From a virus: 23,835 nt of DNA. Positions 5,131-18,393 of the stretch are shown here, piece by piece. How positions within the stretch are numbered: position 1 is the first letter of the stretch; every line of letters begins with the position of its first letter. Location: positions 1 through 23,835 of IMG/VR virus record IMGVR_UViG_3300042691_001939; one strand, 5' to 3'. The position numbers were made by a program, and so were the translations under genes. The notes beneath the pieces are model-generated. The model was not told the origin of the DNA, did no database searches, and saw nothing but the letters and a program-made list of their open reading frames with translations.

Positions 5131-5462
5131 CGCATACCATCATGTTCAAGGGAGTAATGGTTGCCGTCTTGGAATCTCCCTCCCCAAGATCCACCCATTG
5201 ACTCCCACTTTTCTCCAAGAGGACGATGATCCTCGGTAAGCTGTAACAGCTTACCTTCCTTGAATAGATTGAGGTCCACGGCCAGTCGAATCTTATGAGT
5301 AGACTTCGGATGGCCGTACCCTTTCTTCTCTCCCAGAACTCCATGAAGCCTCGGATCTCGGTAAGCATCCCCGAAGGTTAGCTCGTACCCTTGATCGTAT
5401 GCCCACTGGATTAACTCTGCCACCATCAGAGTAAACTTGCGTTGCTTCTGACCTAGCGTCAC
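5127..5462 (-). CDS. Endolysin, M15 peptidase (VanY / L-Ala-D-Glu type)
   Basis: This 111-aa protein is a zinc peptidase that would cut the peptide bridge of peptidoglycan at lysis. The family zinc-site pattern is visible: GDAYRD near 31-36, STHKIRLAVDLN (H56 and D63) and GRFQDGNHYS (H102), with WESMGGSWGG between. This is the minimal catalytic domain, with no cell-wall-binding domain, as in T5-type enzymes, and no signal peptide, so export needs a holin or another route. The start is GTG in a GTGA overlap with the previous gene, preceded by a strong GAGGAGG. It is the last gene of the minus-strand virion block. Confidence 0.9.
   Translation of the reverse strand: MTLGQKQRKFTLMVAELIQWAYDQGYELTFGDAYRDPRLHGVLGEKKGYGHPKSTHKIRLAVDLNLFKEGKLLQLTEDHRPLGEKWESMGGSWGGRFQDGNHYSLEHDGMR
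5235..5255. repeat. Perfect hairpin inside the endolysin gene
   Basis: GGTAAGCTG TAA CAGCTTACC is a perfect 9-bp inverted repeat with a 3-base loop. It lies about 105 bases beyond the last plus-strand stop codon and within endolysin codons for GKLLQLT. No long T-run follows on either strand (plus: TTCCTT), so it is not a standard intrinsic terminator. It might stabilise or end the plus-strand messages. Confidence 0.4.
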
Positions 5463-7333
5463 TGCGGGGCCTCCTCAGGCTGCGTCTGCTTGATTCCGAA
5501 GAACTCTTCAAGGAAGTAGATCCTAGCAAGCGTCTCGTCTTTCTGGGGCGCCCGCTTATCCTGCGCCCTAGTAGCGACCAAGCCATCCAGCATAGAGTTC
5601 ATCTGATCTACAATAGTCCTTACTCGCATATCAGGAAAGTTTCTTGCGAAGTATCCTTCTGCCGTAGTATCAGGATCACCGATCTTTGTTTGCAAAGTTC
5701 GCATAATAGCAGGTGCCGCATGCCTTGCAGTATCGTGGTACCTATCGGCTACACGAGTAGCTTGTGCAGGATCTGCTGCTCGCAGCGACTCGAAATTTTG
5801 AACAAAGTTAGTAGTCAATGGCCCTTTGATAAACAATTCTAGTTCTCGCGGACTCAACGAAGGTCCACGGACATCCATGGCATCCGTAGCTGCAACGAAC
5901 TGAATACCCCAGAAGTTAGCATCCCCCATATACTTAGAAAGTTCTGGATTCTGGTTTGTGAAAATTTTAAGAGAATTCTCTCGCCCTATTATTGCTTCAG
6001 GCTCTGACAGGCTACGCAAATCTCCTTTATTCTTGAATGTGCCTTCCGTAACTCTATTCAAAGTAGTTGTAAGGGCGGCTCCTGTTTGATCCGACAAAGA
6101 CTGAGCCGCTGGGCTCTGTCCCATTAAGAAATTCTGCAATGCATACCCAAGAATTGTATCCCCATAAACCTGCCTAAGTCTCAGCAGATCGCCTCCTGTT
6201 TGTAGCGCATCAAGACCCATTTGGTCTTTACCAAACTTCAATGTGTCGCTAACAGCTTTAATTGCTGAGTAATCTCCTGTAAGCAACTCATTAACTTCTT
6301 TTAGCCTATCTTCCAGATAAGTCCTTGCCCTATCTGCTGTCGCTTGTCCTCGCCCAGTTGTAGCAGGTATTGAATTTATCTTTTGCAAAATTTGACTTCT
6401 TACCGCAGCAACTCTGAGTCCCAGATTTTGTCTAAATTCAGGAGAACTCATTTGTTGCGGAGTCACTCTTCCGTTAGCCATAGGTTCCAGAAGTTCGTAA
6501 TAAAGAGCATTTCCAACAACACCGTCAACTAGTTTGGGAATTGTTGACATATGTTCGACTTCTAACTTTTCTAGATTTTGATTCTGTTGGGCTATATCGG
6601 CAGAGGTCATTGCAGCATTTGCAGTGGCAATACTCGCCTTCAACGACATAATCGATCTTTCTTCCTCTCTTGCTTGCCTCGCCCTTTGCTCATCAGTGAG
6701 CATTCCAATTACCCTCTGTCTTACGAGGTATCCTTCAGATAGTTCTTCATTAGTCATAGTGAAGGGATCTTTTGTAATCGCAACAAGACCCCCCGAATCC
6801 TTCTGAGCTTTTTCAAATCTTTTGATAAGCTCCCCTCTTGCATTGGATTCGCTCTGTGCTTGCCTTGCAGCGGATTCTTCTGCGGCAGTCCAGAACTGGA
6901 GAGTAGCATCGTAGTCACTGAGAACTTCTCGTGCTACTTGGCGATATACATTAGCGAATAGAGGGCTTGCTCCTGCCTTCTCTCTCGTCAATTTTTCTGC
7001 AAGAACGCTTGTGCGTATCCTTGTTCCCGGGCCGCCCTGAGCATAGACTTGTTTAGCCCTCTCAATCGCATCCCTGAACTCCTGAGTATCGGAAGGCTGT
7101 GCCTCTTGCGTTGAGGCAATTTTCATACCAATCTCTTGGTTGACTGCTGCGTCGAGTTCGCCTCTGAACTCCCTGCCTTTGAAAGCAGAAGTAAGTTCTA
7201 TCCCTTGCTCAAGTCCACTACCTGCCGCTCTCAGCAGGCCCTCTGCTGATCTATCTTGTGCACCTTCCTGCGGTCTAATAAAATTAGGAGTCTCGTAGGT
7301 TCCAGTTGCATTTGCTCCGAACTCAGCCATCAT
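5459..7333 (-). CDS. Internal virion (ejection) protein, 624 aa
   Basis: The 624-aa product is long, soluble and predicted helical, with many Ala, Gln, Glu and Arg residues (for example EEERSIMSLKASIATANAAM) and no membrane segment or enzyme motif that I can see. Size, composition and its place after the 1542-aa protein and before the endolysin match the internal core or ejection proteins of T7-like podoviruses (T7 gp15 position), which leave the head with the DNA and help cross the cell envelope. ATG overlaps the previous TGA (ATGA), and GGAGAAG precedes it. An alternative second ATG is 3 bases later. The specific gp15 equivalence is inference. Confidence 0.7.
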   Translation of the reverse strand: MMAEFGANATGTYETPNFIRPQEGAQDRSAEGLLRAAGSGLEQGIELTSAFKGREFRGELDAAVNQEIGMKIASTQEAQPSDTQEFRDAIERAKQVYAQGGPGTRIRTSVLAEKLTREKAGASPLFANVYRQVAREVLSDYDATLQFWTAAEESAARQAQSESNARGELIKRFEKAQKDSGGLVAITKDPFTMTNEELSEGYLVRQRVIGMLTDEQRARQAREEERSIMSLKASIATANAAMTSADIAQQNQNLEKLEVEHMSTIPKLVDGVVGNALYYELLEPMANGRVTPQQMSSPEFRQNLGLRVAAVRSQILQKINSIPATTGRGQATADRARTYLEDRLKEVNELLTGDYSAIKAVSDTLKFGKDQMGLDALQTGGDLLRLRQVYGDTILGYALQNFLMGQSPAAQSLSDQTGAALTTTLNRVTEGTFKNKGDLRSLSEPEAIIGRENSLKIFTNQNPELSKYMGDANFWGIQFVAATDAMDVRGPSLSPRELELFIKGPLTTNFVQNFESLRAADPAQATRVADRYHDTARHAAPAIMRTLQTKIGDPDTTAEGYFARNFPDMRVRTIVDQMNSMLDGLVATRAQDKRAPQKDETLARIYFLEEFFGIKQTQPEEAPQ

Positions 7334-10300
7334 TCTTCTCCAGTTTGTTGAAATCTCAGCGATTCTTGATTCTTATAGAGGAAGCCCTCTACATCGCTTC
7401 TCTTCGCATAATTAACCAATTGGATAATTTCCATACGGTCTTCCCAAGAAGCTATGCCTCCATATAGTATAGAGGCAATTTCCATCCGACCTTTTGCTTT
7501 ATCCATATCACCATCTCTGCGAGCCATCTCACCTTCCATTTGGAGTTTAGAGATCATGTTTGCGACTTCTTGAATACGTTTCTTTCGCGATTCCTTGCTT
7601 TCAATTGCATCCCATTTCTTCCACTCAAGATTGCTGCGGATACCCATAGCAGTAAGGAATGCGCTGTATCCTGAATCGTATTCGATAGGAAGTCCTTTAT
7701 TGTCTCGTAGTACTCCGTACTGTGTCAGATAATATGCTTTATTCGCGTTGGACATAGAACGGACGATATTTCCAAGCTCCGTCATGGTTATCTCTGTTGC
7801 TTCAGAGATTGCTTCAGGACTTACGCTCATCAAGTTCTCATTGAATGCAATTGCGTACCATAGCGTTCCTGCATTAGAGAAAGCATCACTAATCTTAGTA
7901 ATAGAGTTAAGGGCGATACCGCCAGAAAGACCAATAGGAGAGTTATCTCCATAGAGATCCTTGATAAACTCTCCTACGAAGTTACCAGAACCGAAGGTAG
8001 AACCCGCTGCTGTCTCTGATCCAGTCATCTTCCCGATGGCTACATCCAAGAGGCCCAGCATAGTTTTCTCGTAGACTTCCTCTGTTGGCTTCTCTCCTGT
8101 TGCTGCTTCGTATCCCGGTAGCAGAACACCCTTAGCTGCTTCCGGCCCGAGAGGCACACCGTAGGCTCCGTAAAGCATCATATGGCCGATTATGAATCGC
8201 CAGCGTTCTGCTTCAGTGAACTCCTTGTTCATTCCAAGGAATACTTCCATGTACTTGAATGGATACTGGAAGAACTGCAAAGGAAGCTGAGTGAACTGGT
8301 TACGCTGCCACCATGTCTCCATACCGGACATCATGTTAAGCGTGTACTTGTTGGCAGTCTTCTGGATAAACTGGAAGTACTCTCCTGATCCTTCAGCGAA
8401 CTTACCCGCAGCTACAGCATCCTGAGCTTCACGGCGAGCAATACCAAAAGCAGTAATACGGCCAATGCGTTCACCCTCGTACAGCGGCATCCGCAGTTTA
8501 TCTCGGATGCTTTCCCATGCAGTATTAGCTCGCCCTCCGTCGCTTACAGCGCCAGCCCTATCAAGGGTAGCGTCAGTCCTTCCGACAAGGTGCATACCAG
8601 AGCGACGATAATCCTCTACCAGCTTAGTAAACTCGCCCTTCTTGAATCCAAAGAACTTGGATTGAGCAAGTCGCTTATCCAGCACAGCAATCATCTTAGG
8701 ATTGTAATCAGCAGCCGCTGCTGCCCGGATCAAGCCGTAGTCCTTAATAGCACCTGCCCCATGGATAGGATGCAGGATCGTAGCAGTCAAGGCAGCAGAT
8801 CCCTGAACTGCAAGCTGGCCTACGTTGAAGAAGCCGAGAGCAAGATCGTATGCAAGAGTACGAAGACCCCGAACAGCCGAAGTCTCAGTAACGATCTTAC
8901 CCGTACGGAAAGATTCGGGTACATCCTTATCGCCAAGAGAAGCAGCCAGCTTTTGGGCAAGTCTCGACTTAGCCTGCGAGATAAAGATATCTGATGCTCC
9001 CGGCTGCAAAAGAACGCGCTTAACGTACATTCTCTGGGACTCAGAGATATTCCTGAGCTTATTCATCTCAGGAGTATTCGGACCCTTCCATTCCCCATAA
9101 CGCAGAAGTTCATCTGAACTCGGGAAGACAACACCCGGAACTTCGTAGTTCTTTCCAAAAGTAGCAGCCCACTCTCCGACTTCTCGGATTGCGAAGTTCC
9201 GATAGGAGTTTGTATGCACCATACTGCCGATCTGGTTAGATAGGGCTACATATGGATCAACAAGAGGCGCTGGTGAACCATCTTGAAGAAGATGCTGCCC
9301 CCTCTCGGAGTAATACAGTTTACCACCGCGCTGATACGTCTTCAGGCGCTCCCAGTTTGGAGCATTGAACCCTGACATCATTTCGCGGTCATAGACAACC
9401 TCAAGCGGATTATTCAAATCCAATTTGCCTGTGGAAGCCATCTCTTCGATATCCTTTATCGAATACCCTAACTCCTGCAAACGAGTTTCGGCTGCTGCTG
9501 TAATCACAGCCCTATCTCGCTTCTTCAAAGCGCCTCGCTCTACACGAGCCAAGTCTGAGAGATAAGAGTTGTACGTAGCAACAGCTTGGTTCATCTCATC
9601 TACGTATTTTGCTGCATCTTCTTTAGTGCGGAATACGCCATGAGTCAATGGATTTCGAGCTACGTCCTTTCCGTTTATTTTCTGAACTGCACGCTGCTTT
9701 ACAAACCAGACATCAGAATAATTACGAGTACCTCCCTCGGTATACCCTAGTACATTGCGCTGAAGACCTCCCGTATAAGAGGTTTTCTTATCAGCCAGTA
9801 CATGCGAGAATCGCACTCCATCGTACTCAGCCTGTCCATAGGTTTCGATAATATCGAAATTCTTGAGATCATCATCTGATATTTCAGCACGCAGTACTAC
9901 TCTACCATCAGGTAGAAGCACAGAGAAGTCATCTGCAATGTTAGGAGAAACCTTCTTTCCGATAAGAGTACCAAAGGCATGATTTTTAAGCCGCCAAGTC
10001 TCTGCTCCTTCAGCAAGCATCTTGCTTCGCTCTACTTCATTACCAAGGACATATGCGAGATCGGATACAGCCTTATAAGAATAATAAGCGGTTGCTTCCT
10101 CTTTAGTTACGTTCCTTCCGTACTTAGTCATGTACAGGCGATCAAGTTCGCCGTAGTCGAACCACTTTCCTGTAGCTTCGGGATCAAGTCTCGACGGTTG
10201 CAACTTCCCGTAGTCGATAATTTCAGCAAGAGTTTTCTTTTGTTTACGAGAGAGTTTCTCAATAGGCGTCAGCATGTTCTCGACAACTGCGCCGAGCTTT

Positions 10301-11958
10301 GCTTTCTCTAGAGACGAAGACACAGCTTCGCGAGTAGTCCGATATATAGAAGTTACAGCAGGAGACCAGAAGTACCTACCAAAATCGGATTCATTGCCTA
10401 CAGCGCCCCTACGCCACATCTTGGCGAACCAGCCTGCCTTAACTTCGTTGCCAGCAACAAGTTCTGCTGCATCTTCTCCACGAAGCCAGCCTGCTTCATC
10501 TACACTTCGAGTTGCTTTAAGGAAATATCCATCCAATCCAAGATCAGAACCCTTGACAACTTCGTAGACTCCGAGAGCCCGTTCATTTGCTTTCTCAGCA
10601 GCTTTGAGGCTAGCGTAGCCTCTTCCTTTATTGTTGCCTACAAGGACTTCTACTTGAGTATCCCCTGCACCTTGTACAAACTTAGAACTTATCAGCCTCT
10701 TCCCGTACTCTCCTTCAAAGTTCCTAAGAACCTTTTCTACAGGTTTGCCAGTCAAGTTATCAATTCGGTTGACAATAACTCTGTCATTCAGAGCAGCATC
10801 AGCAAGAGCGTATGTCTTATTAATTTCAGATTGTACTTCAGGAACAATACTCAGATCATTAGGCACCAGACTCAGCATGTACCCAGTAGATTTTGAGCCA
10901 GTGCCTGCTGATTGTACTGCCTCACTAGCAGCGAGACGAGCCGCAGCCTTGCCACCAGCAACTCGCGATATAGTCTTGGGAATTGCTTTCAGGGCTGCGC
11001 CAGTCCCTAGTGCATCTAGGATACCGAAAGTATTCTGTACCCATTCGTCTCCAAAGAAAGCATCAATTTTTGACTCTGGATCCCAAACTTGCGGGAGAAT
11101 GCTAGGGATCTTTTCTCCGTTTACTATAATTTCTTTTTTGCTTGTAATGCGAATTGCGTTAGGATTCTCTGTTTGGGAAGTAAACAGAGATTCCGTCATG
11201 GCAGAAATGAGTGCTACAGGATTGTCAGCAAACTGCTTTTCTAGTTTAGCTTTCCACTCCTGTACAGCAGCATTGACCTCATTCAGATCCGCACTCTGGA
11301 ATTTTTTCCATGTCTCTTCCGACTCTCTTAGTGATTCAGTACCCGGAAGGATTGTATCCTTAGCTACAGCAGCTATCCCTTCTCCTTCCGATTTCTTTGC
11401 GGCATACCAGAAAGGAATAAACAATTGGAGGAACTGCCATGCATACGCACCAGTTGCTTTAATATTTTTAATTGCTTGGTCAGTATCCTCATCCCCAACA
11501 AATTGTGGAAGTTTAGCAAAGGCTTCCGTAAAAGCATTATTCAAAGCAAGGGCGAGAGCATTGTCTTTAACATCTTGGTCTGTTACTGGGTACTCAGGGG
11601 TATCCGTCATTTTAAGAGCAGCACCTGCTTCAGCGGCTGCTACTTCAGTAGCCATTTCAAAAGGGATCGTAGGCACTTCCCTAGTTATCAGGGCCTCTGC
11701 AAAAGGAACATCCCCTGCATCAATAGCATTAGAGAGCATCTCTTTGCGGCTCTCCACCGTTGCTTGCAACTCCCTGAGATACAATTCCTGACGCATTTGA
11801 CGCTCTTCGCCCATTTTTAGGCGATAAGCCTGCATCTTTATCACATCCTCATGCAGCGCCTGATTAGCTAGACTGTACTGCGGAAGATACGCACTGACCA
11901 CATCATCAGAGACAGGATCAGGTCGCGGATCAGGAATGATCGGAGTAAATTCATCCAT
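7330..11958 (-). CDS. Very large internal virion protein, 1542 aa
   Basis: This is the largest gene of the window. Its position between the small gp14-like protein and the 624-aa protein corresponds to the T7 gp15/gp16 ejection proteins, which enter the cell before DNA. The N-terminal 120 residues are acidic and helical. Hydrophobic stretches include AYAWQFLQLFIPFWYAA near residue 175, a glycine/alanine-rich NVGQLAVQGSAALTATIL past the middle, and FIIGHMMLYGAYGVPLG near 1265. The C-terminal 150 residues are charged and helical. I cannot find the lytic transglycosylase motif that T7 gp16 carries. Start ATG follows the previous stop as TAATAATG with no clear ribosome site, so translation is probably coupled. 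Its exact biochemical function is unknown. Confidence 0.72.
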   Translation of the reverse strand: MDEFTPIIPDPRPDPVSDDVVSAYLPQYSLANQALHEDVIKMQAYRLKMGEERQMRQELYLRELQATVESRKEMLSNAIDAGDVPFAEALITREVPTIPFEMATEVAAAEAGAALKMTDTPEYPVTDQDVKDNALALALNNAFTEAFAKLPQFVGDEDTDQAIKNIKATGAYAWQFLQLFIPFWYAAKKSEGEGIAAVAKDTILPGTESLRESEETWKKFQSADLNEVNAAVQEWKAKLEKQFADNPVALISAMTESLFTSQTENPNAIRITSKKEIIVNGEKIPSILPQVWDPESKIDAFFGDEWVQNTFGILDALGTGAALKAIPKTISRVAGGKAAARLAASEAVQSAGTGSKSTGYMLSLVPNDLSIVPEVQSEINKTYALADAALNDRVIVNRIDNLTGKPVEKVLRNFEGEYGKRLISSKFVQGAGDTQVEVLVGNNKGRGYASLKAAEKANERALGVYEVVKGSDLGLDGYFLKATRSVDEAGWLRGEDAAELVAGNEVKAGWFAKMWRRGAVGNESDFGRYFWSPAVTSIYRTTREAVSSSLEKAKLGAVVENMLTPIEKLSRKQKKTLAEIIDYGKLQPSRLDPEATGKWFDYGELDRLYMTKYGRNVTKEEATAYYSYKAVSDLAYVLGNEVERSKMLAEGAETWRLKNHAFGTLIGKKVSPNIADDFSVLLPDGRVVLRAEISDDDLKNFDIIETYGQAEYDGVRFSHVLADKKTSYTGGLQRNVLGYTEGGTRNYSDVWFVKQRAVQKINGKDVARNPLTHGVFRTKEDAAKYVDEMNQAVATYNSYLSDLARVERGALKKRDRAVITAAAETRLQELGYSIKDIEEMASTGKLDLNNPLEVVYDREMMSGFNAPNWERLKTYQRGGKLYYSERGQHLLQDGSPAPLVDPYVALSNQIGSMVHTNSYRNFAIREVGEWAATFGKNYEVPGVVFPSSDELLRYGEWKGPNTPEMNKLRNISESQRMYVKRVLLQPGASDIFISQAKSRLAQKLAASLGDKDVPESFRTGKIVTETSAVRGLRTLAYDLALGFFNVGQLAVQGSAALTATILHPIHGAGAIKDYGLIRAAAAADYNPKMIAVLDKRLAQSKFFGFKKGEFTKLVEDYRRSGMHLVGRTDATLDRAGAVSDGGRANTAWESIRDKLRMPLYEGERIGRITAFGIARREAQDAVAAGKFAEGSGEYFQFIQKTANKYTLNMMSGMETWWQRNQFTQLPLQFFQYPFKYMEVFLGMNKEFTEAERWRFIIGHMMLYGAYGVPLGPEAAKGVLLPGYEAATGEKPTEEVYEKTMLGLLDVAIGKMTGSETAAGSTFGSGNFVGEFIKDLYGDNSPIGLSGGIALNSITKISDAFSNAGTLWYAIAFNENLMSVSPEAISEATEITMTELGNIVRSMSNANKAYYLTQYGVLRDNKGLPIEYDSGYSAFLTAMGIRSNLEWKKWDAIESKESRKKRIQEVANMISKLQMEGEMARRDGDMDKAKGRMEIASILYGGIASWEDRMEIIQLVNYAKRSDVEGFLYKNQESLRFQQTGEE

Positions 11959-12411: not shown

Positions 12412-12702
12412 TTAATGTACCTCAAATTTAAACAAGGGGAATTCATTCCCGTCGATAGTGAACAAAGTTTTATCCGTTCCGTAGAAACCCATCATTGCTA
12501 GGAACTTCTCTTGCTTATCATCCATACGCGGAGCGTACAGAGGCTCTCGCAACTGCATCTGAATATTGCATACGGAACTCATCAAGTACTTACAGATCGT
12601 ATGGCTCCACTTCTTTACAGTGCAGTGCAGGACTACTTCTCCGCTAAGTACACGATCTCCCACAATGCGGTAATACAGATTCTCATCCAGTACCGTCATC
12701 AT
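12412..12702 (-). CDS. Hypothetical virion-block protein, about 96 aa
   Basis: The frame can start at 12702 (ATGATGA overlap with the previous stop), at 12717 or at 12750; I choose 12702 for its junction, with TGGAAC about 8 bases upstream. The product (MMTVLDENLYYRIVG...) has aromatic and charged residues and ends GNEFPLFKFEVH. Cysteines are scattered, and no motif or membrane span is seen. Sitting between the tail-protein C-terminal domain gene and the internal virion genes, it may be a small tail or assembly component, but I recognise no family. Confidence 0.65.
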   Translation of the reverse strand: MMTVLDENLYYRIVGDRVLSGEVVLHCTVKKWSHTICKYLMSSVCNIQMQLREPLYAPRMDDKQEKFLAMMGFYGTDKTLFTIDGNEFPLFKFEVH

Positions 12703-12986
12703 GGTTCGCTGTTCCATCCTAGTTCCATACTCCAGCCGAGAAGCTGACAATCTTTTCCGGGCTCAGTTCTGAACTTCAGAGATAGTGCCCTCCCTTTCCC
12801 TCGGATCTTGTTTCGGGTAGTGATAACAGAGTAGCCGTAACTTACTGTTGCAGTCTCTTCCAATGCGAAATACGGCTGTCTGAAACGATATGCTTGGAAC
12901 TCTTGTCCCCAACGTCCTGCATCATCGCTATCAGTCCACTCCCAGCGAGCTTGGACTAGGCATCCTGATTCGTTAGTAATTGGCAT
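12699..12986 (-). CDS. Detached C-terminal domain of a tail tubular B / stabilization-type protein, 95 aa
   Basis: The 95 aa read like the C-terminal domain of the podovirus tail tubular B/stabilization family: SGCLVQARWEWTDSDDAGRWG, then QAYRFRQPYF, then VITTRNKIRGKGRALSLKF, then EPGKDCQLLGWSMEL. In the relatives I remember this is fused to the end of one long tail-tube protein. Here it is its own gene, two genes after that protein. It starts with ATG overlapping the previous TAA (TAATG) and has only a weak ribosome site, so it is probably coupled to the LamG gene before it. It likely still docks in the tail tube as a separate subunit; that is inference. Confidence 0.75.
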   Translation of the reverse strand: MPITNESGCLVQARWEWTDSDDAGRWGQEFQAYRFRQPYFALEETATVSYGYSVITTRNKIRGKGRALSLKFRTEPGKDCQLLGWSMELGWNSEP

Positions 12987-14593
12987 TATATTTTACCCGG
13001 CAGGCCCCTATTATAATATGAACTAGTTGGCGGCAAAAAAGATGTTTGAGAGTATGCCGCAGTATGCAACATAAATCTAAATTCGTCAATATGACCCAAA
13101 TACACTCCTGTCCCGTTAGGAGCTAAAGAACTTCCACCTAGTGTAAATATATTCCTACTTTCAGAACCTATTGATGCAGTAACAGTAGAATTACCAATTA
13201 AATTTCCATTTATATACGCGGATACAATATTTAATGAATTGCATTCTATAGCAATATGTGTCCAAGTGTTTACAGAAATAGCAATAGTCGAACTCAGTAT
13301 TGGAGAATTATCTCCCCATTTAAATACAATTTTTCCATCATCAGTTCCATGGATTGCCAGAGATTCTATAGCTGTATCCGAGGAAAATTGTCTTCCTCTT
13401 GAATCAAAAATATAGCTTTTAGCTGATAATGTACTATCAGGATTTAACCAAAAATCAATAGTAAAACGGGATCTTCCAAGGACTGTCATTCTTGATTCAG
13501 ATGTTCTAAAAAAACCTCCAGAACATTTTAAAGAACTTGTTCCGAATTTATATTTAATATCTGATATGGCAGCGGAACCTAATGCAGAAATTGAAAAATA
13601 ATTAAAATTTCCATTGTAAAAACTTTTCCCGAACATTGTGTTATTAATTGTAGTCGGAGCGGATAACGTATTATCGAAATGATAAAGTATTCTCCATTTG
13701 TCTATTAGACGAATTGGAGGAGAAAAAGACAGAGTGTCCCCGTATACTACTTCATCCATTGTTATTCTGATGGAATCAATTATGCCGGAGGATGCTCCTA
13801 TCTTGTCTGCGTAATTGTATTCCTCTGGAGGATTAGTAAGATATGTATAGAATACTTGTAATGCTTGTGGAATACTCACTGAAGCTGAAAATTCATGGTC
13901 AGCTCTTAAAATTCTTTTTCCGTCTACAAAAAATGACCAAACATGCTTATTTCTTTCTAATACAATATGTCTCCATGTATTATCATAGATATTAAGCGTT
14001 GTTTCTACAAATGTCCATGAAATACTGGCCGTCTCCCCGAAATTATTTCCACCTTTTGAGGTACTTAAATAGAAATAAGGCGGTGTCGGTAGTTCGGGAT
14101 TCGCGTTTATCCAACCTAAAGCTATAGGGCAATAACTATTATTTCCTGAAAAGCCGAGAAGTCCTCCATGCTTAGGGCCGGGTTGAGCTGTATATCCAGC
14201 TTCTTCTAGTTTTACCCACATTTCTATTGTTACAATAGGAGGTAATTTACTTTGATAATTATATCCAGAATTTCCTATACCTTGAAGATAACTTCTAAAA
14301 TCACTTGATTTTGTTCTTTTAAATTGTATATATGGCTCATTTACTCCAGTCAACGAGCTAATTTCAAAAACACTATAGAAATTTGTTTCTATATCTTCAG
14401 GTATATTTTGGTCGAATGTAACAGGATAGCGAAATTCATTTGAATATACTAAAACTCCTATCCAAGATTGCATTATAGAAACAGAATCTGTTAAACTCAT
14501 AACAGAGTCACCAGCAATAAATTTTTCCGTTTTCCCGAAATGAATAGTAAGATACGGAGAATACTTATAACGAGAAGAACCTATATATGGCAT
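12986..14593 (-). CDS. LamG-domain tail protein with two lectin-like domains, 535 aa
   Basis: Residues 12-31 (SPYLTIHFGKTEKFIAGDSV) match the linker segment of tail tubular B-type proteins. After that come two LamG/concanavalin-like jelly-roll domains. The first, roughly 85-290, includes VTIEMWVKLEE, NTWRHIVLERN, FFVDGKRI and IDSIRITMDE. The second, roughly 325-525, includes FTIDFWLNPD, NTWTHIAIECN, AYINGNLIG and HIDEFRF. Such domains bind glycans and are common in phage host-recognition proteins. The gene is visibly AT-rich, unlike its neighbours. Its ATG follows the previous TAA by one base, and I see no Shine-Dalgarno site. It is probably a receptor-binding or tail-decoration protein; the ligand is unknown. 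Confidence 0.78.
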   Translation of the reverse strand: MPYIGSSRYKYSPYLTIHFGKTEKFIAGDSVMSLTDSVSIMQSWIGVLVYSNEFRYPVTFDQNIPEDIETNFYSVFEISSLTGVNEPYIQFKRTKSSDFRSYLQGIGNSGYNYQSKLPPIVTIEMWVKLEEAGYTAQPGPKHGGLLGFSGNNSYCPIALGWINANPELPTPPYFYLSTSKGGNNFGETASISWTFVETTLNIYDNTWRHIVLERNKHVWSFFVDGKRILRADHEFSASVSIPQALQVFYTYLTNPPEEYNYADKIGASSGIIDSIRITMDEVVYGDTLSFSPPIRLIDKWRILYHFDNTLSAPTTINNTMFGKSFYNGNFNYFSISALGSAAISDIKYKFGTSSLKCSGGFFRTSESRMTVLGRSRFTIDFWLNPDSTLSAKSYIFDSRGRQFSSDTAIESLAIHGTDDGKIVFKWGDNSPILSSTIAISVNTWTHIAIECNSLNIVSAYINGNLIGNSTVTASIGSESRNIFTLGGSSLAPNGTGVYLGHIDEFRFMLHTAAYSQTSFLPPTSSYYNRGLPGKI

Positions 14594-14594
14594 A

Positions 14595-15548
14595 TTAGGT
14601 ACACACTACAGTTGGATTAGCAGAAGTAGGAACAGTGAAGTTTGAGGTGTATCTTGCTACACCTTTTGTAATCCTTACATCATCTATGTACCCATTCATT
14701 GATCTATTATTAATCTGACCCATTATTAAAGGATAAGAGGCGCTGGATTGAGGAGTCCCACTGATCGCTACTGGGCTTGCCAAGCCTACTCCATTTACAA
14801 AAATATTAATTCCAGAGGAATTCTTCACTAAAGCTACGTGGTTCCAAGTATTTATACTTATTGTTTGCGTAGAGCTAACAACATTCTGGCTTCCGGTAAA
14901 ATAATAGAACCGTATCACTCCTGTGCTTATTGGGCCAAAAGACCAATAATTAACACCCGGAGCCCCGGGCTCAGCATTTGCTATTGCTACAGAAACTACG
15001 TTAGTTCCGTTACTAAAACTAAAAGTACTTAAATCATTAGCATATACCCAATATTCTAATGTAAAGTCTGTAGTCCACCAGTCAAATGCAACAGTTGTAT
15101 AAGGGATGGTGAGATAATCTCCTGTCCCATCAAAGTATGCACTGGCTCCACCAAACTTAGACTGGGTTGTTGATATCTGAGTATTTCCATTTCGAGTTAC
15201 TGTTTTTGGTGATGGACTGCTATCTGTGAAAGTAGTAGACCCGTTTGCACCATTCATTGGGAGAATCAAAGAAGTACTGTTGTAGTAGATATCGCAAGCA
15301 GCCGCCGCAGTTATAGAAGGAACTCCAAAAGCTGCCGTAGAATTCAAACCATTCATATAAACAATAGGAGTGCCCCAAGGCGGTATGGCACTTCCCGCGA
15401 TATACTGCTCTGTTCTCGTAAAGTGCATCATCAAATAAGGGTTTAGTTTATGCTTAGAAGGGCTGATAAACTGCTGCCTACGCTGATCTTCCTCAGTCAT
15501 CTGAGGCTGAACGCGGTTGAAAGCGCGTACTTTACGAGGACGCTTCAC
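14595..15548 (-). CDS. LamG-domain tail protein with one lectin-like domain, 317 aa
   Basis: The N-terminal 35 residues are basic. Residues 36-54 (NPYLMMHFTRTEQYIAGSA) match the linker of tail tubular B-type proteins. After about residue 85 a typical phage LamG unit follows: SLILPMNGANGSTTF, KFGGASAYFDGTGDYLTIP, FTLEYWVYAND, NTWNHVALVKN, INIFVNGVG and GYIDDVRITKGVARYT near the C-terminus. LamG modules in phage tails usually bind surface sugars. The start is GTG in a GTGA overlap with the tail tubular B stop, with CAGGATA about 8 bases before. It lies between the two halves of the tail tubular B-type protein, which suggests it is mounted on the tail tube. Confidence 0.8.
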   Translation of the reverse strand: MKRPRKVRAFNRVQPQMTEEDQRRQQFISPSKHKLNPYLMMHFTRTEQYIAGSAIPPWGTPIVYMNGLNSTAAFGVPSITAAAACDIYYNSTSLILPMNGANGSTTFTDSSPSPKTVTRNGNTQISTTQSKFGGASAYFDGTGDYLTIPYTTVAFDWWTTDFTLEYWVYANDLSTFSFSNGTNVVSVAIANAEPGAPGVNYWSFGPISTGVIRFYYFTGSQNVVSSTQTISINTWNHVALVKNSSGINIFVNGVGLASPVAISGTPQSSASYPLIMGQINNRSMNGYIDDVRITKGVARYTSNFTVPTSANPTVVCT

Positions 15549-17422
15549 AATACATATCCTGTAATTAAATAAGCCTCCGCATCCACTGCGGACCAGTCCT
15601 CAAAATTCTCATCATTGAAATAGTACAGAGCCATAGAATACGTTCTAGATGCTTTCTCTAGAAGCCCTGTATATCTAAAATCAGCTTCTACAATATTCCT
15701 GTATGCTACAGGGGTAGGCAGGTATCCAGTCACCCTTGGCGTAGCAGTTCCGCTGAGATCCGCAGTATCATAGAATTTAAATCGGCTCCACGCAGGCATA
15801 GAGAGATCCAGAATCAATTCATGCGTAAACTTCTGCGGAGAGGTCTCGTTAATTTCTTTTTGATAAAGCCAACGACAGCGATAAGAAGCATCGTCAAAGA
15901 AACCAACTGCATAGTTCTTAGAGAAATACGGAATACTATTATACAACCTCTGTATAGTATACTCTGTAAGAGATTTAAATTCTATACCAGTCTGCCCTAC
16001 TGCAAGAGCAAAAATACCGTTCCTGCTCCAATAAATAACTGCATCAGGGGTAACTACAATACTGTCAGGAGAGAGTACCCCGTTATTTGTCAGGAACTTG
16101 GATTGGTACTCCGTTGCAGTAAAGCCTCTGTCACCTCCTGCAATAGCCCATACACCGTTGTCAGCAAATACAAGAAGTTCACTCTTAAAAGGAACCAGAG
16201 CTTTGATATTCACTGCATCAGGAAGCTGGATATAACCTCCATCAATATCAATTAGGTCTGAGATATCCTCTGCCGTGGGATCAGCTTCTTGGTAGCACTT
16301 AGCCAAGTCCTCCTTGGAATCTACAAGTTTGCTAAAGAGAACAAATGTCCCTATATGCGGGCTACGAGAATCTCCTCCAGTCTCTCCAGCAGAACAAGCA
16401 TAAAAGATGCGGCCAGCGTATGCTGCAACAGCTTTGATACCGCCAGTAGACTGATCCGTAGGAATGCTTGTCTTATAGTTTTTACGAGCAGGCCAACCAG
16501 CAGCTAAATCCTCGTCATACGTATCTTTCCTGCCTTGGCTACGATCAAAAAGATCGATAATATAATGCCCGTTTGCAGCAGGGGTATTGCCTGAAACAAT
16601 GTTCTTTAGGGCATGTGGGTAGTACGCCTTACGGCCATTGGTGAGCATCGTAAGCGCAGTGAACAGAATATCCGCATTACTTGGATAGACACCCAGAGAG
16701 AGCTTGGTGCGCTCTACAGGATCTTCTACCGTACCGTTATTCATAGTGGTGGGATTGTCTGGATCAGAAGAACAAAAGAACTCAGGAACCCAGCCTTGGT
16801 TATACAAGTTGTAAGCGTGCAAATCAGTCAGAGTGCTGGTGCGTTCATCTGTAGCAAAGCCATCGTCTACTCCCCAGAAATCTCTGACTTTCAGACGTAC
16901 TTGTCCTAATGAATACGAAGCAGAAGCCAACCACTCGACAACTCTTAGCTGTTGATCCCCGACAGCTACAACTAAGTTTCCTTGGATACTAGAGAAAGAA
17001 AATTTTACATTAGTCGTTGCTGTGAGAGAAAGGGTTCCTCTAGGATTGCCTACAGCATTGGCTTTATTAGCATCATAGAAATACAGAAGATTTCCGTATT
17101 GGTAAACAAAAAGATTCCTATTAGGAGACTCGCCTACGTTCTCCCAGAGATAGGTCATAATAGAACGAGGCATAACACTATAGGTAGTACTGGCAGAAAG
17201 GCTAAAAGAAACCTGCCCAAGTTCTTGAACAGTGCTTACTCCAGCAGAGCCCCCAGCAGCACCAATGCCGTATCTACGTCTGCGAGTGCCATCACGGTTA
17301 AGTACAAAGTTCTCCTCATCAACAGAAGCACCTTCTGGGAAATTGAGAGGAGAGGCTTCGGTAATTAACCCCTTAACCCAGTTAGTAGCATCTATTGTTG
17401 TTTTAACTCGTAGCGGTCGCAC
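15545..17422 (-). CDS. Tail tubular protein B / stabilization-like protein, 625 aa
   Basis: The N-terminus, with NWVKGLITEASPLNFPEGAS followed by DEENFVLNRDGTRRRRYG, is characteristic of podovirus tail-tube/stabilization proteins (T7 gp12 position), which form the lower tail. Later stretches such as ELLVFADNGVWAIAGG and VIYWSRNGIFAL are typical beta-propeller-like repeats of the family. The protein ends AEAYLITGYVL. Known relatives continue after this TGY with a linker and a C-terminal domain of roughly 100-150 residues; both are found here in the next three genes instead. GTG start at 17422, overlapping the 66-aa gene by 20 bases; the upstream AAGAGAG is a modest ribosome site. Confidence 0.85.
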   Translation of the reverse strand: MRPLRVKTTIDATNWVKGLITEASPLNFPEGASVDEENFVLNRDGTRRRRYGIGAAGGSAGVSTVQELGQVSFSLSASTTYSVMPRSIMTYLWENVGESPNRNLFVYQYGNLLYFYDANKANAVGNPRGTLSLTATTNVKFSFSSIQGNLVVAVGDQQLRVVEWLASASYSLGQVRLKVRDFWGVDDGFATDERTSTLTDLHAYNLYNQGWVPEFFCSSDPDNPTTMNNGTVEDPVERTKLSLGVYPSNADILFTALTMLTNGRKAYYPHALKNIVSGNTPAANGHYIIDLFDRSQGRKDTYDEDLAAGWPARKNYKTSIPTDQSTGGIKAVAAYAGRIFYACSAGETGGDSRSPHIGTFVLFSKLVDSKEDLAKCYQEADPTAEDISDLIDIDGGYIQLPDAVNIKALVPFKSELLVFADNGVWAIAGGDRGFTATEYQSKFLTNNGVLSPDSIVVTPDAVIYWSRNGIFALAVGQTGIEFKSLTEYTIQRLYNSIPYFSKNYAVGFFDDASYRCRWLYQKEINETSPQKFTHELILDLSMPAWSRFKFYDTADLSGTATPRVTGYLPTPVAYRNIVEADFRYTGLLEKASRTYSMALYYFNDENFEDWSAVDAEAYLITGYVL

Positions 17423-17603
17423 GCTGTTTACGCTCTCTTGATTTTTGACTTACGTTAATAGCTCGACTGCGAACCATTGCTTGGAACATCTTAAGTGCTT
17501 CTTCAGCACGCTTCTTAGATACCCAATCTCCTTTCAGAGCATTAGGCAAAGGCCCACGGTCATTATGAATTCGCCAGTACTGCCCTTCTTGATATACTTC
17601 CAT
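17403..17603 (-). CDS. Hypothetical protein between tail tubular genes, 66 aa
   Basis: The ATG at 17603 lies one base after the stop of the tail tubular A-like gene (TAACATG), with AAAGGG just upstream. Longer frames reaching 17954 would lie within that gene and are rejected. The 66-aa product begins MEVYQEGQYWRIHNDRGPLP, then has WVSKKRAEEALKMFQ and a basic Ser/Arg-rich tail. Small proteins with the same YWRI.ND.GPLP pattern sit at this place in related podoviruses, as far as I recall; function unknown. Confidence 0.72.
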   Translation of the reverse strand: MEVYQEGQYWRIHNDRGPLPNALKGDWVSKKRAEEALKMFQAMVRSRAINVSQKSRERKQRATATS

Positions 17604-17604
17604 G

Positions 17605-18393
17605 TTACCCTTTATCAAGTAGTGGATTCTTTTCGTATCCGCTATATGCCTTACGGCGTCCGTAGTTAGGCAAGCGAATACCGCCCTTAGCTCGCCAAGC
17701 CTTGCGAGAAAGCCAGCGTTGCTGGCGAGTTGCTTTCTGTTCTGCCTTTTCGTTTGATACTTGCCGTAGTGTATAGAAAGCAGTACTCTTAGCTTCTTCA
17801 ACAAGTGCAGGAAAGGCTTCAGCAGGCAGATCAGGAATGCTGCTATCCAAGCCAGTCCACTCAGGATTCTTAACGCCCCAACAAGAATTCTTTGATTGCT
17901 GTAGCACTGAATCCACTGCGCTATCCCAAGAATCCATAACCAGTGTAGTGTCATCGAAAGATGTCCAATACTGCGGAGCTTGGTCCTTACGGATATTTAA
18001 ACGAACACCGCCGAAGTTAATCTTCTGTACATTACTTGCAGAAGAGTCCCTATGAGCGCAGTACTCAAAGAAATCCTCTGGCTGGAGATACTTTACTTCT
18101 TCGTATTTATCCTTTGTGTCCGTACTGTTCCGCTTGTTGTACCGAATCCATTTGACTTCTTTGATGTTATCGGGAATACGAAGACACGAAGGCTGGTTAG
18201 GATCTGCGAGAGAATCGCAATTAAAAGGAGTATGCATATGCGGCCAATTGCGATTAGCCAACATTTCAAGATAAGTAGTTTTGACAATTTGAGCGACTTG
18301 CTGGGATTCAATAGTGTCATTGACGGAGTTCACATTATCTCCGTCCATATCATTCATAATGTCTTGTACAATTTCGAGTAGAGTCAGCTTCAT
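17605..18393 (-). CDS. Tail tubular protein A / head-tail adaptor, 262 aa
   Basis: The 262-aa protein has the size and position of podovirus tail tubular A or gp4-type adaptors, which attach under the portal and start the tail. Visible marks are the helical N-terminus (MKLTLLEIVQDIMNDMDGD), TTYLEMLANRNWPHM, PDNIKEVKWIRYN, YLQPEDFFEYCAHRD, and the helical VEEAKSTAFYTLRQVSNEKAEQ with a basic C-terminus (RKAWRAKGGIRLPNYGRR). The gene has its own ribosome site (AGAGG) directly after the terminator, so it opens the tail-gene segment. Family assignment is by pattern and context. Confidence 0.82.
   Translation of the reverse strand: MKLTLLEIVQDIMNDMDGDNVNSVNDTIESQQVAQIVKTTYLEMLANRNWPHMHTPFNCDSLADPNQPSCLRIPDNIKEVKWIRYNKRNSTDTKDKYEEVKYLQPEDFFEYCAHRDSSASNVQKINFGGVRLNIRKDQAPQYWTSFDDTTLVMDSWDSAVDSVLQQSKNSCWGVKNPEWTGLDSSIPDLPAEAFPALVEEAKSTAFYTLRQVSNEKAEQKATRQQRWLSRKAWRAKGGIRLPNYGRRKAYSGYEKNPLLDKG

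Follow-up and report, generated by a model that had tools for sequence, protein, structure and literature searches.

How can the nozzle, a core component of the tail and a single chain in nearly all relatives examined, be encoded in pieces with lectin-like genes between them? This question is raised by a 23,835-nt stretch of viral DNA (IMG/VR record IMGVR_UViG_3300042691_001939, hereafter the window), in which the nozzle, or tail tubular B, is divided between two ORFs of the minus strand. The larger one (15545-17422) encodes a 625-aa body, which ends at ..AYLITGYVL, directly before the linker strand, and matches columns 9-559 of phrog_8094 (family 'tail appendage', 769 columns; E 6e-135). The smaller one (12699-12986) encodes the C-terminal piece of the platform as a free protein of 95 aa, which begins at ESGCLVQA and matches columns 678-764 at the opposite end of the same family (E 7e-30). 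The one-polypeptide state, usual for a nozzle without defining it, is not met in these separate ORFs. Between them, on the same strand, lie LamG1 (14595-15548, 317 aa), with an N-terminal anchor and one LamG domain, and LamG2 (12986-14593, 535 aa), with an N-terminal anchor and two LamG-like stretches. The start of LamG1 overlaps the stop of the body by 4 nt (GTGA, 15545-15548, minus strand), a gap of 1 nt separates LamG1 from LamG2, and LamG2 overlaps the 95-aa ORF by 1 nt (TAATG).

The nozzle gene adjoins, within the tail module, the gene of a 262-aa tail tubular A or adaptor-like protein (17605-18393, minus strand; phrog_7592, E 2.5e-95), the putative partner of the nozzle platform. The boundary between adaptor and nozzle genes is spanned by a long second ORF of 183 aa (17403-17954), which overlaps the last part of the former and the first part of the latter; split relatives have its 3' part (~70 aa, starting MEV.Q.G.YW) conserved ahead of the nozzle start. 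On the other side, a 96-aa gene (12412-12702) without any PHROG or Pfam match overlaps the 95-aa ORF by 4 nt (ATGA) and is present in split and single-chain genomes.

Outside the split group, body and C-terminal domain occupy one ORF at 112 relative loci on viral contigs, these loci coming from overlapping fetches of fewer contigs. Their linker is ~27-40 aa long and usually contains PY...(H/Y)..RTE, the PYL motif varying in some of them. Reference phages, such as Salinivibrio phage CW02, MW202697, ICP2, SIO1, and CVT22, have both phrog_8094 matches in one gene, ~90-110 bases apart, and the relatives L006 and L008, whose bodies are 66-67% identical to that of the window, are single chains of 739 aa. 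Only two exceptions occur, namely L029, which is damaged or rearranged, and L034, which has one in-frame stop. In L034, a distant single-chain relative (7998-10391), this stop occurs shortly before the TGY strand and is followed by an ATG, and it is possible that it represents a second, independent split of the same protein.

The preliminary description of this locus, made from the sequence alone, had claimed the coordinates and the end of the 625-aa protein, the free 95-aa gene, the two LamG genes between, and 0-4 base overlaps or a 1-base gap joining the four frames, all of which held. The family motifs that it cited match the sequences of relatives, and the profile search that it proposed placed body and 95-aa protein in one tail tubular B family, phrog_8094. 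The two outcomes that it had named as refuting both failed. The two proteins are not separate members of unrelated families in relatives, being of the same family and in one ORF at the above 112 loci, and the 625-aa protein does not hold a complete C-terminal domain, as it stops before it. We rejected an unrelated family for the 95-aa protein on the same phrog_8094 match.

The split state is found in the window and in six contigs with bodies 78-84% identical to it, namely 3300010885 and 3300027973 (near-identical), 3300025889 and 3300006802 (near-identical), 3300010370, and 3300037189, body identity to relatives as a whole being 66-84%. The GTGA junction recurs unchanged in all six, again with anchored inserts, and the later junctions vary among split relatives (second junction: gaps of 1, 10, 4, and 0 nt; third: an overlap of 1 nt and gaps of 1, 1, and 9 nt). 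In the tree of the nozzle body the split group is one clade (support 100/99); the split has a single origin on this tree and is conserved in the clade. All split sequences are metagenomic. Profile and anchor searches found no split members beyond the six contigs, either anchor set alone retrieving only these same six, and the genome contigs searched for a host genome carrying the module yielded nothing but one distant relative, whose contig is titled Dependentiae MAG. All split members found belong to a small group of short-tailed phages that is related to Zobellviridae, a relation that rests on nozzle relatives, which include members of Zobellviridae genera at only ~28-34% identity, without a family-level phylogeny. 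Among the reference phages, CW02, ICP2, SIO1, and CVT22 are those that we take to be Zobellviridae. We found no prior description of a split or LamG-bearing nozzle in the literature searched, which misses most subscription journals and bioRxiv preprints.

A segment of ~30 aa with the motif PYL..HF.RTE is absent from both nozzle pieces and present at the N-terminus of each LamG ORF; it is missing from both pieces in every split record. We built a profile from the linkers of 70 single-chain relatives, without any split sequence, and ran it against the 504 six-frame ORFs of the window. It matched exactly two of them, LamG2 (E 8e-5) and LamG1 (E 3e-4), at the N-terminus in each case, with no further match up to E 1. 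This result and the recurrence of the arrangement in six other contigs show that the observation does not arise by chance. Together with the orthologue alignments, these matches place the first anchor strand, PYLMMHFTRTE, at 15408-15440 (minus strand, residues 37-47 of LamG1) and the second one, PYLTIHFGKTE, at 14525-14557 (minus strand, residues 13-23 of LamG2). The anchors are homologous to the linker missing from the nozzle pieces. The preliminary description had proposed a multi-subunit replacement for one polypeptide, of which the split held; it had not spelled out that both LamG genes encode their own copy of the strand that the nozzle pieces lack, which changes lectins inserted between the pieces into lectins that may complete the fold.

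The orthologue alignments sort the anchors into two orthologous sets, MK....ISPSRYKMAPYLTIYFTRTE and MRIGASRQKYSPWLIIHFGRTE, and the duplication is therefore probably older than the spread of the group. Anchor identity between the window and the other split members is 35-53%, lower than that of the body or of the C-terminal piece. The anchors are conserved, whereas the sequence behind them differs strongly in length and sequence among split relatives. L004 (contig 3300010370) ends inside its second inserted gene, so that the 95-aa piece lies beyond the contig. Its first inserted gene encodes only the anchor, 60 aa long with no lectin behind it, and the stop codon of this gene shares 1 nt with the following start. 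The best indication that the indispensable part is the anchor and not the lectin comes from this gene, and from this one contig only. In L012, a 333-aa protein takes the place of the bare anchor. The first inserted gene and the body end are wholly different between the two records (L004 9866-10048, L012 9866-10867), yet these are 97-99% identical over long flanking stretches, suggesting a recent exchange.

LamG1 matches PF13385 (Laminin_G_3, concanavalin A-like) with 60.5 bits against a curated cut-off of 27.6, and also phrog_24074 (E 3e-51); LamG2 matches PF13385 with 82.3 bits, in two stretches. A structure model of LamG1 was of low confidence (pLDDT 42) and was not used. The GC content of LamG2 is 34%, compared to 42-51% in neighboring genes, which suggests a recent acquisition. 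All six other split records have a match to the same Pfam family, which passes the cut-off in five, whereas the seven single-chain relatives searched, two of them 47 kb long, have none. Pectate-lyase-like beta-helix proteins show the opposite distribution, with five of the seven single-chain records carrying them (two copies in four) and none of the seven split records; three split genomes have only a short ~181-aa protein with the phrog_17462 spike anchor. As both kinds of records are fragments, this pattern is an association and does not prove the loss of a spike. We infer, without binding data, that the lectin-like proteins probably bind a cell-surface glycan and act as receptor-binding proteins.

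The fold of the nozzle was approached through L006, a single-chain relative 66% identical to the window. Its model (pLDDT 88.9, pTM 0.85, alignment of 56 sequences) has as best solved matches in Foldseek the podophage nozzles of cyanophage A4, Pa223, PhiM1, HRP29, and T7, and VIA-align gave Z 26.9 for SU10, 25.1 for Pa223, 24.2 for VP1, and ~20 for T7. A sequence search of solved structures returned tail tubular protein B of cyanophage A4 as the only strong match (E 2e-13). L006 is thus predicted to have the T7 gp12 nozzle fold, with propeller and platform; for the split chains this fold is inferred from their relation to L006. In T7 gp12 the platform, which contacts the adaptor, is a nine-stranded jelly roll, three strands coming from the N-terminal 45 residues and the rest from the C-terminal part (PMC6702177). 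The L006 model shows N-terminal strands at residues 6-12, 32-37, and 39-41 and six main C-terminal strands at 607-610, 626-632 (the PYL strand), 655-660, 698-704, 712-717, and 725-735. From this model we infer that the body would contribute ~4, the anchor 1, and the 95-aa protein 4 of the ~9 platform strands, their pairing being unseen.

Body and 95-aa piece are both under purifying selection, with dN/dS of 0.05-0.11 and ~0.03, respectively, for pairs of split relatives with an estimable dS. The corresponding anchor values, based on only 35-55 codons and excluding the second-anchor rows of L004, are noisy. Adaptor identity is 84-96% among split genomes and 74-77% between split and single-chain genomes, and the same divide is seen for the body (66-69% between the two kinds) and the C-terminal piece (63-66%). 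The portal, scaffold, and capsid proteins do not show this divide. Indeed, the scaffold proteins of L012 and L004 group with those of single-chain genomes (98/99), and the gene directly after the 95-aa piece in L012 is closer to single-chain genomes (76-81% vs 60-62%). The simplest reading is that adaptor, split nozzle, and lectin-like genes travelled together by recombination, although a reversion to the single chain remains possible. The tail genes are followed by two large proteins (7330-11958 and 5459-7333) that are mostly 23-77% identical among genomes with 86-100% identity in their portal and capsid proteins. By position they may be internal virion proteins, with no confirming family match for the 624-aa one.

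The absence of the short strand from the nozzle pieces and its presence at the LamG N-termini suggest that these proteins are mounted on the tail by completing the nozzle fold. In our best reading, which we hold with moderate confidence, the nozzle would be a multi-chain version of the one-chain nozzle (T7 gp12 / P22 gp10 fold). The genes would be translated as separate proteins, probably coupled through their overlapping or abutting stop and start codons, giving four chains. The propeller and about four platform strands would come from the body chain and the last four strands from the 95-aa chain, and the strand between them (PYL..HF.RTE) would be donated in trans by the N-terminal anchor of either lectin-like protein. 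The donor would thereby complete the platform sandwich and be fixed on the tail exterior near the adaptor-nozzle junction, where T7 carries its fibers (PMC6702177), its exposed LamG domains probably binding a host cell-surface glycan. Two anchors for six slots would make mixed occupancy possible. The split itself is shown; assembly in trans, strand donation, and receptor binding are inferred, and the pairing of the anchor strand with both other chains has not been seen, there being no model of the complex. The preliminary claim of a modular opening that mounts lectins is supported to this extent, the reassembly of the pieces in one complex remaining an inference. Against the best reading, two anchors for one slot type require an ad hoc sharing rule. 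A bolder version, a hetero-multimeric nozzle in which interchangeable lectins donate the lost strand, giving two receptor specificities per ring and a change of receptor without a change of tailspike, might as easily be wrong as right.

Known systems share parts of this arrangement. In the single-chain podophage nozzle (tail tubular B or 'tail appendage', phrog_8094; T7 gp12, P22 gp10, SU10 gp17), one end is homologous to the body and the other to the C-terminal piece. Unlike in the window, there are no separate ORFs with two anchored LamG genes between them, and the linker strand is not carried by LamG proteins. Receptor-binding proteins are also fixed through their N-termini at the nozzle or close to it in T7, by the fiber dock (PMC6702177), and in SU10, by the short-fiber dock loop, which extends propeller blade 1 (PMC9509320). 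Both of these nozzles, however, are complete and present a dock or loop for attachment, whereas in the split group a piece of the platform itself would be brought in by the protein that is mounted. Swappable tailspikes, e.g. those of Klebsiella phages (PMC12692247) or the phrog_17462 spikes found here, likewise combine a conserved N-terminal anchor with a variable distal domain exchanged between close genomes, but the anchor of the split group derives from the nozzle's own linker. In the donor-strand complementation of chaperone-usher pili, the N-terminal strand of one protein completes the sandwich of another. The likeness to the split nozzle, which has no chaperone or usher, is one of working only; strand pairing is inferred and no kinship is claimed.

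Among rival explanations, the one that survives best is that the nozzle is multi-chain and the lectin-like proteins merely hang on the exterior of the platform, the anchor being a relic or a surface hook. The existence of two anchors for one slot type and the variation of the PYL motif in some single-chain relatives make this possible; that the PYL segment is lacking in the two nozzle pieces of every split record, yet retained without a lectin in L004, speaks against it. It is unlikely that the LamG proteins serve for tail decoration or stabilization, or are transient cargo, instead of binding a receptor. LamG-like folds do occur in structural phage proteins, e.g. baseplate wedge subunits, but a role in host recognition agrees with how strongly the sequences behind the conserved anchor vary and are exchanged, and with the association between these proteins and the lack of beta-helix spikes. 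Recoding by programmed frameshift, stop read-through, or ribosome hopping could fuse the tightly abutting or overlapping ORFs into one chain with lectin domains. We consider this very unlikely, since the second and third junctions vary among relatives in frame relation and spacing, each ORF has its own start codon, and the fused chain would contain the anchor strand twice; no slippery heptamer was seen at the GTGA junction, by inspection by eye only. An artifact or decaying gene, conceivable as all contigs are metagenomic and L029 is a broken version of this gene in such data, is all but excluded for the group and was rejected, given that the split is present, with clean starts and stops, in seven contigs whose inserts differ, and that the free 95-aa ORF is under purifying selection.

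If our preferred reading of strand donation is true, receptor binding could shift from fibers or spikes to the tail tube, and, in its bolder version, one virion could bear two receptor specificities in the same ring. Strand donation in phage assembly would then have a case that can be tested, with the single-chain sister genomes (portal 88-96% identical to split ones) and the bare-anchor genome L004 as natural controls.
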